From positions 1-41,418 of IMG/VR virus record IMGVR_UViG_3300047157_000040: a stretch of 41,418 nt of DNA; one strand, given 5' to 3'. This DNA is from a virus. The notes beneath the pieces are model-generated. The model was given only the letters and a program-made list of their open reading frames with translations, was not told the DNA's origin and did not search any database. Shown piece by piece: positions 10,660-16,929 of the stretch. The position numbers and the translations under genes are program-made. The stretch's first letter is position 1; each line of letters starts with the position of its first letter.

Positions 10660-11249
10660 CTAGTGTACTTTGCCTTCCTTATTCTTTAGTAATTGATTAG
10701 CGTCTGCAATGTCAGCCTCATCGTTGGCCCATTGTATGTCAAACTGTCTATCCTCTACAACAACATGGTGTTTCGGGGACCATCCGGCCTGAGTCTTTAA
10801 CCAAAACGTAGTCATGCTAGGAGATTCCCCGCTAACCGCCATTTCATAAGCTACACCTGCTACTCTTGCGGTGCGTTTCTCTTTACCTACTAGTAAATTG
10901 TGTGCATAATATTTAGTTAGAGTAGCATTACTAATACCCATTACTTTAGCTATAGTATGCTGGTCTAATCCTATAGTAACCATCTCTTCTACCTTAGAAT
11001 AATCGTCATCTGTAGGTTTATACGTCTGTCCACTCTTTTGATTCTAGACTTTTTACCACCAGCTTTCTTAGATTCTGCACTAAGACCACCAGTAGGTCGA
11101 CCTTTCTTACGCTCTATCTTTAATACAGCATCTGCTGGGACCACACCCTTTGCTGATGCTACTGCATATCGTAGTTCTTCTTCGAGTTCTTTTTCTATTT
11201 CTCTAATCTCATCTTCTGAGTCTACAGAAATTTCACCTTTATTTGCCAT
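10660..11249 (-). CDS. terS: Terminase small subunit, frame-broken
   Basis: The first frame (ATG 11249) gives an acidic helix and a basic AT-hook-like stretch (KKGRPTGGLSAESKKAGGKK). At about 11030 the frame changes and the protein continues GQTYKPTDDDYSKVEEMV and a helix-turn-helix QHTIAKVMGISNATLTKYY. The C-terminus follows through WLKTQAGWSPKHH to 10660. The combined length of about 196 residues and the HTH suit the DNA-recognition subunit of terminase. No good Shine-Dalgarno stands before the ATG. The gene heads the leftward late unit. Alternatively these are two genes, but the second frame has no good start before the HTH. Confidence 0.75.
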
Positions 11250-11257
11250 ATACTATT

Positions 11258-11263
11258 ATTATA
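11258..11263 (-). promoter_or_regulatory. Possible leftward -10 element before terS
   Basis: On the minus strand a perfect TATAAT ends eight bases before the terS ATG. A transcript from it would begin about two bases before the ATG, a leaderless message, and no Shine-Dalgarno is seen. There is no good -35 hexamer. A second TATAAT within GGTATAATAGTACC lies near 11371-11376 and would give a normal leader. Confidence 0.35.
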
Positions 11264-11323
11264 CCATAAATTTAAATTAGTTATCCCTTCATTCCTAGAA
11301 TTCTTACAAAGTTTTCTTTTACC

Positions 11324-11337
11324 AGTATATATATACT
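11324..11337. promoter_or_regulatory. 14-bp palindrome, copy 1
   Basis: AGTATATATATACT is perfectly self-complementary and is followed by ATTAGT. The same 14 bases occur at 16342-16355 in the only other sizeable early intergenic region, followed by ACTAGT. Occurrence of one long AT palindrome in both control regions suggests a shared protein-binding site, for example an operator or a replication initiator site. Confidence 0.6.
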
Positions 11338-11562
11338 ATTAGTTTGGTTCTTTGGGGCTCATTCTAGGTACTATTATACCAGATAATATCTAAGTAATTA
11401 TGCATAGTGCCGAAAATAGTTGGTTATGCAAGGTACTACATTGAAAAAATAAGAATTTTATACGTGGGTTCCTTCGGCTCATGGACAAAATTCACAAAAG
11501 AGGTGCCCCCCCTTCCGCCTACGCTCCCTCCCCCCCACGCATATTCGGGGTTTTCTTACATG

Positions 11563-11662
11563 GGATGGGCTTTCTGGGATGGATGGCGTAGACTGGACCA
11601 GATAGGATGGATTCTTGGACCCATCATGGGATGGGATGGATGGAAAAAAGCAGAGGGGATGG
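11563..11662 (+). repeat. GGATGG repeat cluster
   Basis: Eight copies of GGATGG lie within 100 bases, at 11563, 11577, 11581, 11605, 11629, 11634, 11638 and 11657. Two are extended to GGATGGATTC followed by T or G and TGG (11605, 11657). The strand is strikingly G-rich, beside two C7 tracts just upstream. Clusters of short direct repeats beside terS or the early promoter fit an origin or packaging site. Confidence 0.7.
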
Positions 11663-11739
11663 ATTCGTGGATTTCATATATTCCTTGACATAATAACCAA
11701 GGCTCTCAAAGTTTTATTATCCATTGATTAAATTAATTG

Positions 11740-13796: not shown

Positions 13797-13826
13797 GTAT
13801 TACCCAACTAATAAAAGTCCCTAGAA

Positions 13827-13860
13827 TCGAAGATTTCGAGCCCAGTTATCCAAGCTGGGC
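13827..13860 (+). other. Two adjacent hairpins
   Basis: TCGAA/TTCGA (13827-13831 and 13835-13839, three-base loop) is followed directly by GCCCAG/CTGGGC (13840-13845 and 13855-13860, nine-base loop). No T run follows. They lie after the HhH-GPD-like gene and 43 bases before a promoter. They could form a transcript end, a processing site or a small structured RNA. Confidence 0.45.
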
Positions 13861-13902
13861 CAAGGATTCCCAATTATTTTCAATTTATTTGCATTTTAGG
13901 GG

Positions 13903-13932
13903 TTGACAGGATTTATAGATTCGTGCTAAAAT
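13903..13932 (+). promoter_or_regulatory. Sigma70-type promoter
   Basis: TTGACA at 13903-13908, an 18-base spacer, and TAAAAT at 13927-13932. It stands 40 bases before the gene at 13972 and would start the next early operon. Confidence 0.7.
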
Positions 13933-13971
13933 TCTTACCAGAAATTAAATAATAATACCAAGGAGGTAAAA

Positions 13972-14290: not shown

Positions 14291-14300
14291 GGATGAGATA

Positions 14301-14463
14301 ATGAGTAATGACTTGACTGAGTAAAAATTATGGGATTATTATGTACAAGGAGCAACATGAGAAAATTAGGAAGATCTATGTAAGTAATAGTGGATGATGA
14401 AGTATCAGTCCAGATTGTGAAACTATGTGATGGAGGCAAGGCTGACATTACATACAGAGAGTG
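14301..14463 (+). pseudogene. Decayed or frame-broken copy of 14129-14290
   Basis: It begins ATGAGTAATGA like the intact gene, keeps AAAAATTATGGG and ends with codons for LCDGGKAD..., matching CICDGGKA of the intact copy. It carries a TAG or TAA at codon eight in frame one, and its similar segments lie in at least three frames (KIMG, EKIRKIYV, VIVDDEVSVQIVKLCDGG). So it is a tandem duplicate that is either dead or damaged by sequence errors. Confidence 0.55.
14332..14359 (+). repeat. Duplicated start-signal module, copy 1
   Basis: GGGATTATTATG followed by TACAAGGAGCAACATG. The same text, one base pair triplet shorter, occurs at 14498-14524, where it gives a good RBS and start for the gene at 14522. 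Here the ATG opens only an eight-codon frame, so this copy may be a leftover of the duplication. Confidence 0.6.
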
Positions 14464-14497
14464 AACTAAGGAGAAAACAAATCAATATGATTATATA

Positions 14498-14524
14498 GGG
14501 ATTATATGTACAAGGAGCAACATG
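14498..14524 (+). repeat. Duplicated start-signal module, copy 2
   Basis: GGGATTATATG followed by TACAAGGAGCAACATG, containing AAGGAG and the ATG of the gene at 14522-14707. It repeats the module at 14332-14359. Confidence 0.6.
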
Positions 14525-14707: not shown

Positions 14708-15112
14708 GTGCCTAAGAATTTACATAAGGAATATGTTTTAGCGGATAGGTCTATTGTTACTATTGCTAGAATTATGGAGGCAACTGGGCTCAGTTATGTT
14801 GGTGCTTATAGCAGGCTCCAGCGTTCTGCCCAGCCAGATTACATATGGGCTGAGATGGGGCATGGAGGCAAGCAACTGCAGACTTCAACAAAGAAATGGA
14901 AAAATGAGCCAGATGAGGTCGTTGCAGGGATACAATTGAAAGCCAGCTGGATGGATGGCATGTTGCATACTCTTGCTGGCCCTCCACATGATAGACATGG
15001 GCTTGTGATGACCAAAAAGGATGTTAGGTCTTTGCTAGCCTATCGTGAAGAGATGCGTCAGCAGTGGCGTGATGGTAATAATAATATACTAAATATGGAG
15101 GTAGAAAAATGA
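14708..15112 (+). CDS. Early hypothetical protein
   Basis: 134 residues from a GTG (GGAGGATTTTAG before it), directly after the previous stop. The first part (LADRSIVTIARIMEATGLSY, AYSRLQRS) has a helix-turn-helix look, so DNA binding is possible. The C-terminal part is basic and helical (KKDVRSLLAYREEMRQQW). The stop overlaps the next start as ATGA. Confidence 0.55.
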   Translation: MPKNLHKEYVLADRSIVTIARIMEATGLSYVGAYSRLQRSAQPDYIWAEMGHGGKQLQTSTKKWKNEPDEVVAGIQLKASWMDGMLHTLAGPPHDRHGLVMTKKDVRSLLAYREEMRQQWRDGNNNILNMEVEK

Positions 15113-16282: not shown

Positions 16283-16310
16283 TTGCATAACATAAAATAG
16301 TTGGTACAAT
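16283..16310 (+). promoter_or_regulatory. Possible sigma70-type promoter
   Basis: TTGCAT at 16283-16288, 16-base spacer, TACAAT at 16305-16310. It would transcribe through the inverted repeats that follow. It could drive a small RNA or the SSB operon. Confidence 0.5.
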
Positions 16311-16378
16311 ATATCTATGTATGGTTACTATGAAGTTGTTAAGTATATATATACTACTAGTAATTCATACATAGATAT
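16311..16378. repeat. 13-bp inverted repeat enclosing palindrome copy 2
   Basis: ATATCTATGTATG at 16311-16323 is complementary to CATACATAGATAT at 16366-16378. The 42 bases between include AGTATATATATACT (16342-16355), the same 14-bp palindrome as at 11324-11337. The nested design suggests a control element or replication site rather than chance. Confidence 0.65.
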
Positions 16379-16391
16379 TCTTAGTATTTCT

Positions 16392-16436
16392 AAGAGTGCA
16401 TTGAGTTTTTACTTCCATTTTTCTTAATGCACTTTT
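16392..16436 (+). terminator. Long hairpin upstream of the SSB gene
   Basis: Stem 16392-16405 pairs with 16423-16436 (core AGTGCATT/AATGCACT, two G-T pairs) around a 17-base pyrimidine-rich loop, ending in TTTT. It could end transcripts of the small-gene chain or form the 3' end of a short RNA starting near 16317. Confidence 0.5.
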
Positions 16437-16500
16437 AGTAGTATTAAGCTACTAGGTAGCCCAGCCTTTGGGTAGAATGTTAACTATAAAGGAGTTAAAT

Positions 16501-16887
16501 ATGAGTGAGATGTTACCACTAACAGGTGAAGTTGTTTTCAATAAATTAACTACACCAGATGTCTTTATGGGTACGAGTAAGTACACACTTACAATTGCCT
16601 TAGATAAGGATGGTAAAAAACTAGCAGAGAAGAACGGTCTTAAGACTAATGACTATGAGGGTAAGACACAGATTACTTCTAAGCGTAAGATAGACTTTGG
16701 CCAGCCCAAGGTTTACAATGCTGACAAGGAGGAAGTTGATGCCTCTCATGTATCTTTATTTGGTGATAAGGTTACGATGCTAGTCAAGAAAGGTAAAGCA
16801 CCTTACGATGCTTACACATACCTAGAAAGAGTCCGAGTGGATGAAAAGGCTGAGGGTGTGGAGGAGTACGACCAAAGCGAATTCTAA
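16501..16887 (+). CDS. Single-stranded DNA-binding protein (T7 gp2.5 type)
   Basis: I choose ATG 16501 (MSEMLPLTGE), behind AAAGGAGTTAAAT, giving 128 residues. The OB-like core contains GEVVFNKLTTPDVFMGTSKY and SLFGDKVTMLVKKGKAPY. The acidic C-terminus ending DQSEF, with a final aromatic residue, is the hallmark of phage SSBs that dock the replisome with this tail. It heads the replication operon before primase-helicase and polymerase. Confidence 0.75.
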   Translation: MSEMLPLTGEVVFNKLTTPDVFMGTSKYTLTIALDKDGKKLAEKNGLKTNDYEGKTQITSKRKIDFGQPKVYNADKEEVDASHVSLFGDKVTMLVKKGKAPYDAYTYLERVRVDEKAEGVEEYDQSEF

Positions 16888-16903: not shown

Positions 16904-16929
16904 GGGCTACTATCATGGTAGCCCTTTTT
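16904..16929 (+). terminator. Rho-independent terminator after SSB
   Basis: GGGCTAC (16904-16910) and GTAGCCC (16918-16924) around a seven-base loop, then TTTTT. It lies between the SSB and primase-helicase genes and probably lowers read-through, giving more SSB than downstream products. Confidence 0.85.

Follow-up and report, generated by a model that had tools for sequence, protein, structure and literature searches.

What does it mean that a phage carries one palindromic word at exactly two places, each just downstream of a promoter-like element that faces a different operon, and what keeps the two copies alike? The question is raised by a complete IMG/VR virus record (IMGVR_UViG_3300047157_000040), which belongs to a family of uncultured marine phages and all 41,418 bp of which were examined (hereafter, the window). 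An earlier note had pointed to the 14-bp palindrome AGTATATATATACT at positions 11324-11337 and 16342-16355, and had proposed that one protein, perhaps a phage regulator or initiator, binds both. We think that this idea is partly supported. The reading that we favour, to which we would give a probability of about 0.4, is that these are paired, operator-like double-stranded DNA (dsDNA) sites that serve one common factor and have been homogenised through copying; we rank it above copying without a ligand, RNA signals of the put or nut kind, replication-initiator sites and the other explanations weighed below.

Two sites at two promoters

The palindrome is present exactly twice in the record, against a mean of 0.00 exact matches in shuffled sequence. 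With two mismatches allowed, two matches are found in 8 of 100 shuffles, which is not rare. The shared word is in fact longer, namely the 20 bp AGTATATATATACTAYTAGT, for which even up to three mismatches give only the two sites of the record (0.03 expected). When 2.9 million viral contigs of IMG/VR were scanned for AGTATATATATACTAYTAGT, it turned up in 13 stretches, three contigs having both copies; those that were examined belong to the clade of the window, several of them being already in our set of relatives, and L191, the one unfamiliar contig tested, aligns with the window over 5.4 kb at 89% identity. There are thus two copies only, both are adjacent to a promoter and their pairing is conserved in relatives, so that neither the many random copies nor the lack of conservation that the earlier note had named as grounds against its idea is what one observes.

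The left shared site (11324-11343) consists of the palindrome followed by ATTAGT and the right one (16342-16361) of the palindrome followed by ACTAGT. The 13-bp inverted repeat described around the second site is exact (16311-16323 and 16366-16378, with 42 nt between the arms), and the left site, as had been overlooked, sits within an inverted repeat too (11294-11368, minus strand), with outer arms CCTAGAAT (11294-11301) and ATTCTAGG (11361-11368) and inner arms CAAAG/CTTTG (11307-11311 and 11350-11354). The CCTAG/CTAGG arms of this left hairpin are invariant in 35 relatives. In the window the core alone is common to both sites, the arms of the two being different and non-homologous.

Promoter-like elements lie upstream of the left and the right site in most relatives. 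Those of the window are weak by consensus, and a promoter scan of the window itself was not significant; they were assigned by conservation and by the extended -10 motif. On the left, the extended -10 TGGTATAAT (11373-11381, minus strand) stands 4 nt upstream of the inverted repeat, and about 28 related genomes have TTGACN-17/18-TATAAT 31-37 nt ahead of the hairpin. On the right, the promoter (16283-16310, plus strand) is made up of TTGCAT (16283-16288), a 16-nt spacer and the extended -10 TGGTACAAT (16302-16310), relatives having TTGACA-17-TACAAT/TAAAAT at this position. The hairpin that holds the right copy (hairpin 1, 16311-16378, plus strand) starts directly after this extended -10. The centre of the palindrome is 42.5 nt from the end of the -10 on the left and 38.5 nt on the right.

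The leftward genes code for terminase, portal, scaffold and other head or structural proteins, and the block is led by the terminase small subunit gene, terS (10660-11249, minus strand). The rightward genes, from position 16501, code for a probable single-stranded DNA-binding protein (SSB), a primase-helicase, a DNA polymerase, a Cas4-type exonuclease, a ribonucleotide reductase and a RusA-type resolvase. The product of 16501-16887 (plus strand), the first gene after hairpin 1 and a second leader hairpin and just before the primase-helicase gene, has no PHROG or Pfam match, and is probably an SSB judging by its position and its resemblance to T7 gp2.5. An intrinsic terminator (16904-16924, plus strand) separates it from the primase-helicase gene; similar hairpins are visible after the SSB gene in two relatives (L016 and L071). 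In every relative that has both genes, terS runs leftward and the SSB gene rightward.

The description of the two control regions (563 and 218 bp) as the only two long early intergenic regions was too strong, as there are further early gaps of about 231 bp (14291-14521) and 175 bp (13797-13971) in which no plus-strand ORF of at least 50 aa is listed.

Cores that match within genomes and differ between them

Both copies are kept in the close relatives L003, L005, L081 and L082, and variants occur in L006, L007 and L008; the left copy is intact in L007 and reads AGTAAATATATACT in L006 and L008. When the comparison is extended to more distant relatives (about 43 genomes overall, additional SSB scans having given few new genome pairs), the arms are found to be conserved and the cores to differ greatly between phages. 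Within each genome, the left and right cores match: the mean local-alignment score over 43 genomes is 30.8, whereas the highest mean reached in 10,000 permutations is 26.1, and left cores score 31-72 against right cores of their own clade and 14-24 against those of other clades. With clade-stratified permutation p is 1e-4, a value also obtained for the divergent remainder taken alone, most of whose genomes are individually non-significant. For each core the best match of at least 13 nt in its own locus is the partner core, if short AT-rich or unrelated matches are set aside, and beyond such matches no third site of at least 13 nt was found in the fetched loci. Centres that are the same in the two hairpins of one phage, and differ from phage to phage, suggest that a control signal is shared or that copying keeps the two sites matched.

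The matched segments are about 8 to 47 bp long and include indels; examples are L013 (42 bp, exact) and L027 (25 bp). Such variable length, together with indels, is unusual for the site of one protein and counts against the operator reading. The core of the window is a perfect 14-bp palindrome; those of some other clades are not palindromic.

The orientation of the match depends on the clade. It is direct in the clade of the window, in the L032-L040 group and in L045, and inverted in L013/L027 and in the CATTGAACC clade. In the direct clades, including the window, the cores of the leftward and rightward leader RNAs are complementary, and in the inverted clades they are identical. The occurrence of both orientations is what one would expect of a dsDNA site.

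Between L131/L054 and L077, whose DNA is about 91% identical, the cores are unrelated and in opposite orientation, each being matched within its own genome (p = 0.004, 0.02 and 0.007). In the CATTGAACC clade there are two core alleles, A and B, switched at both sites and tracked neither by early-gene content nor by the sequences of the ten genes compared. The absence of a tracking gene and the switch between L131/L054 and L077 point to a direct coupling of the two sites or to copying between them. Finally, L013 and L027 have almost identical helix-turn-helix (HTH) domains, and yet both of their cores have changed jointly at several positions. The speed with which the cores turn over in concert, in genomes that are otherwise almost the same, provides a natural experiment on what keeps two distant sites of a phage genome identical.

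A common factor, copying or an RNA signal

On the operator-like reading, each site would combine a phage-specific core with conserved inverted-repeat arms and would lie just past a sigma70-type promoter, the left promoter driving the terminase/structural block and the right one the SSB-primase-polymerase block. A common factor would recognise the core, in the window as a homodimer would recognise the 14-bp palindrome, and would thereby couple the two operons; its simplest role would be that of a repressor or roadblock in early infection. The cores would drift fast, and selection for the common factor would hold them equal, with the aid of copying events in which one core overwrites the other in either orientation. 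The binding of a factor, its preference for dsDNA and its regulatory effect are what we infer. In phages among whose scanned proteins there was no RNA polymerase of their own, a matched pair of sites at the two main promoters gives a concrete handle on the timing of late and replication genes. What stands of the proposal of a single binder is the restriction to two copies, their position at both operon promoters, the conserved pairing and the indifference of the matching to orientation. What does not stand so well is its regulator or initiator. Many matched genomes have no homologue of the best HTH candidate, or one without the HTH, and in the one clade tested no compared gene or early-gene set tracks the change of allele.

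This candidate is a protein of 134 aa (14708-15112, plus strand) with an N-terminal beta-hairpin and HTH and a conserved C-terminal domain, encoded by the most widely conserved early gene (42 loci). Its HTH has weak matches to winged-HTH families, its family has no match above any curated cut-off, and its AlphaFold model (mean pLDDT 82.6), which likewise shows a beta-hairpin plus HTH, found no significant structural neighbour in fold searches. The recognition helix groups with the type of core, but this grouping follows phylogeny. Many genomes that are still matched have only the C-terminal part or no homologue, and the CATTGAACC clade has none. We do not consider the HTH as the required or sole cause, because matching is significant also in HTH-less genomes and in the homologue-free CATTGAACC clade; the protein is a candidate binder for the phage of the window and not a general explanation. 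The N-terminal HTH is indeed optional in this family, and L100 seems to carry two HTH repeats. TerS was also considered and is an unlikely binder, being 85-95% identical between clades whose cores are unrelated.

Are the sites read as DNA or as RNA? The second hairpin of the SSB leader (hairpin 2, 16380-16448, plus strand), which begins 1 nt after hairpin 1, is a useful standard of comparison. It has a covarying stem, with compensatory changes in 12 of 21 pairs across 35 genomes; its sense strand is the more stable one in 37 of 37 cases, and in the pair table G-U outnumbers A-C by about 110 to 1. To judge from this pattern it is clearly an RNA structure. The two matched hairpins, unlike hairpin 2, have no sense-strand preference for G-U (by script count, 24 G-U and 46 A-C on the left, 29 G-U and 20 A-C on the right), and therefore look like DNA-level sites. 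The missing G-U signature and the mixed orientation of the cores would favour recognition of dsDNA, but this is suggestive rather than decisive, since the excess of A-C on the left may partly reflect an A/C-rich sequence. The mixed orientation also speaks against a sequence-specific RNA binder as a general explanation.

We think that the hypothesis to be taken most seriously besides our own, even if we find it rather doubtful, is concerted evolution without any shared ligand, in which the quasi-palindromes swap their cores in either orientation during phage replication, by template switching or annealing-type recombination, and only the arms or hairpins matter. Copying is a serious rival because the HTH candidate is dispensable for matching and none of the genes compared in the one clade tested tracks the allele. 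It would readily account for matched segments that vary in length, contain indels and occur in both orientations, for the 42-bp exact copy of L013, for the A and B alleles and for the different, internally matched and oppositely oriented cores of L131/L054 and L077. It leaves unexplained, however, why the exchange is confined to the same two places and to the cores, the arms being non-homologous, and it has to recur in several lineages. A bolder variant, which we consider improbable, is that the hairpins form a directly coupled pair whose cores must equal each other rather than fit a fixed ligand, the phage rewriting one from the other in either orientation; if true, the late and replication operons would be linked by a self-matching paired control or synapsis element of a new kind. 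It is somewhat harder still to believe in RNA signals of the nut/boxB or HK022 put kind in the two leaders, where the nascent hairpins, either by modifying the host RNA polymerase or as targets of an RNA-binding protein, would allow read-through of the long operons. Both hairpins do begin at or soon after the promoter-like elements, hairpins 1 and 2 are adjacent, the latter covaries and there is a terminator after the first gene; but the RNA cores are complementary and not identical in the clade of the window, the left hairpin has no sense-strand preference and the stems of the two sites are unlike.

The remaining possibilities seem weaker. That the cores are replication-initiation sites (DNA hairpins, or AT-rich unwinding elements) for one initiator would fit their AT-rich and palindromic nature inside inverted repeats, and the position of one directly before the SSB, primase and polymerase genes and of the other beside a probable genome terminus; yet phages with unrelated cores have replication proteins that are 75-99% identical, neither an initiator gene nor iterons were seen, and we hold this to be unlikely. 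Direct pairing of the two leader RNAs as antisense kissing loops, coupling the operons, is very unlikely: the complementary cores of the direct clades, including the window, are as it predicts, but the inverted clades have identical RNAs, and no third matching site of at least 13 nt was found. We give hardly any credence to site-specific recombination that would flip or remove the early region. Conserved arms with arbitrary matching cores would have the look of partner sites, but no integrase or recombinase (nor a phage RNA polymerase) was found among the scanned ORFs, a subset of all ORFs, the directions of terS and SSB are constant, no rearranged early region was seen, and sites in direct orientation would delete the early genes.

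Known systems and neighbouring features

The phage operator pair OL/OR of lambda consists of short palindromic dsDNA sites next to two promoters. The likeness lies in the same short palindromic dsDNA site being present at two promoters and nowhere else in the genome, with a specificity that differs between related phages and an orientation that is irrelevant. The differences are that here each promoter has a single site, which is placed after the -10 within a longer inverted repeat, that the cores vary in length and that the candidate HTH gene is dispensable for matching; no repressor or lysogeny gene was identified.

The boxB loops of lambda nutL and nutR share one sequence in a given phage and differ from phage to phage, as do the present cores. 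These are, however, far longer than a boxB loop and vary in relative orientation, so that identity in the same sense in both transcripts exists only in the inverted clades, the clade of the window being complementary; no boxA or N-like protein was found. Antitermination by HK022 put acts via the beta' zinc-binding domain of RNA polymerase. The put sites are two similar two-stem elements just downstream of PL and PR (PMC9378689), which resembles our pair of related elements. There is also an adjacent pair of stem-loops, but in the SSB leader only, the left leader having one nested hairpin, and here again there is no phage RNA polymerase among the proteins scanned. By analogy put is the nearest RNA counterpart, but its defining features fail in our case: the cores match and the stems do not, the RNA cores of the window are complementary and the left element lacks an RNA-strand signature.

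Hairpin 2 deserves attention of its own, as a well-supported RNA element without an Rfam entry; neither it nor the leaders gave an Rfam match above the gathering score. It is conserved in at least 35 genomes, and its U-rich loop with CUUCC (UUUUUACUUCCAUUUUU) is conserved too. The SSB of T4, gp32, controls its own mRNA autogenously. Both cases have in common that the SSB gene is preceded by a structured leader containing a U-rich single-stranded stretch, although the sequence and fold of hairpin 2 are unlike the gp32 pseudoknot, and hairpin 2 is possibly an autoregulatory site for SSB.

Comparison with cultured phages yielded no match, whether at the nucleotide level or for the SSB and the 14708-15112 protein; the DNA polymerase is at most 43% identical to that of Pelagibacter and Roseobacter phages. 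A tRNA search gave nothing. An early gene found in some relatives (L025:6646-7257) matches Pfam GP88 (PF17338, E 2e-9) and was undetected in the window. The left cores of L065:2745-2816 and L056:577-648 contain CCTCCTTA, the bacterial anti-Shine-Dalgarno sequence, which may be due to chance.

The terS gene is split by a frameshift into two ORFs in this record (587 nt, against 585 in relatives), and the ORFs of terL (309 aa) and portal (344 aa) also look short, so that the record may hold frameshift errors. A second leftward TATAAT (11258-11263, minus strand), conserved in relatives, lies about 9 nt ahead of the terS start codon in the phage of the window and in relatives, a spacing that could possibly yield a nearly leaderless terS mRNA. 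Adjoining the left site, at about 11440-11680, is a G/C-rich tract with GGGATGGAT-like repeats. Relatives have contig ends that cluster 300-600 bp upstream of terS, and in two near-complete contigs the ends overlap each other in this region, by about 140 bp in one and 9 bp in the other; the region is probably a genome terminus or terminal repeat.
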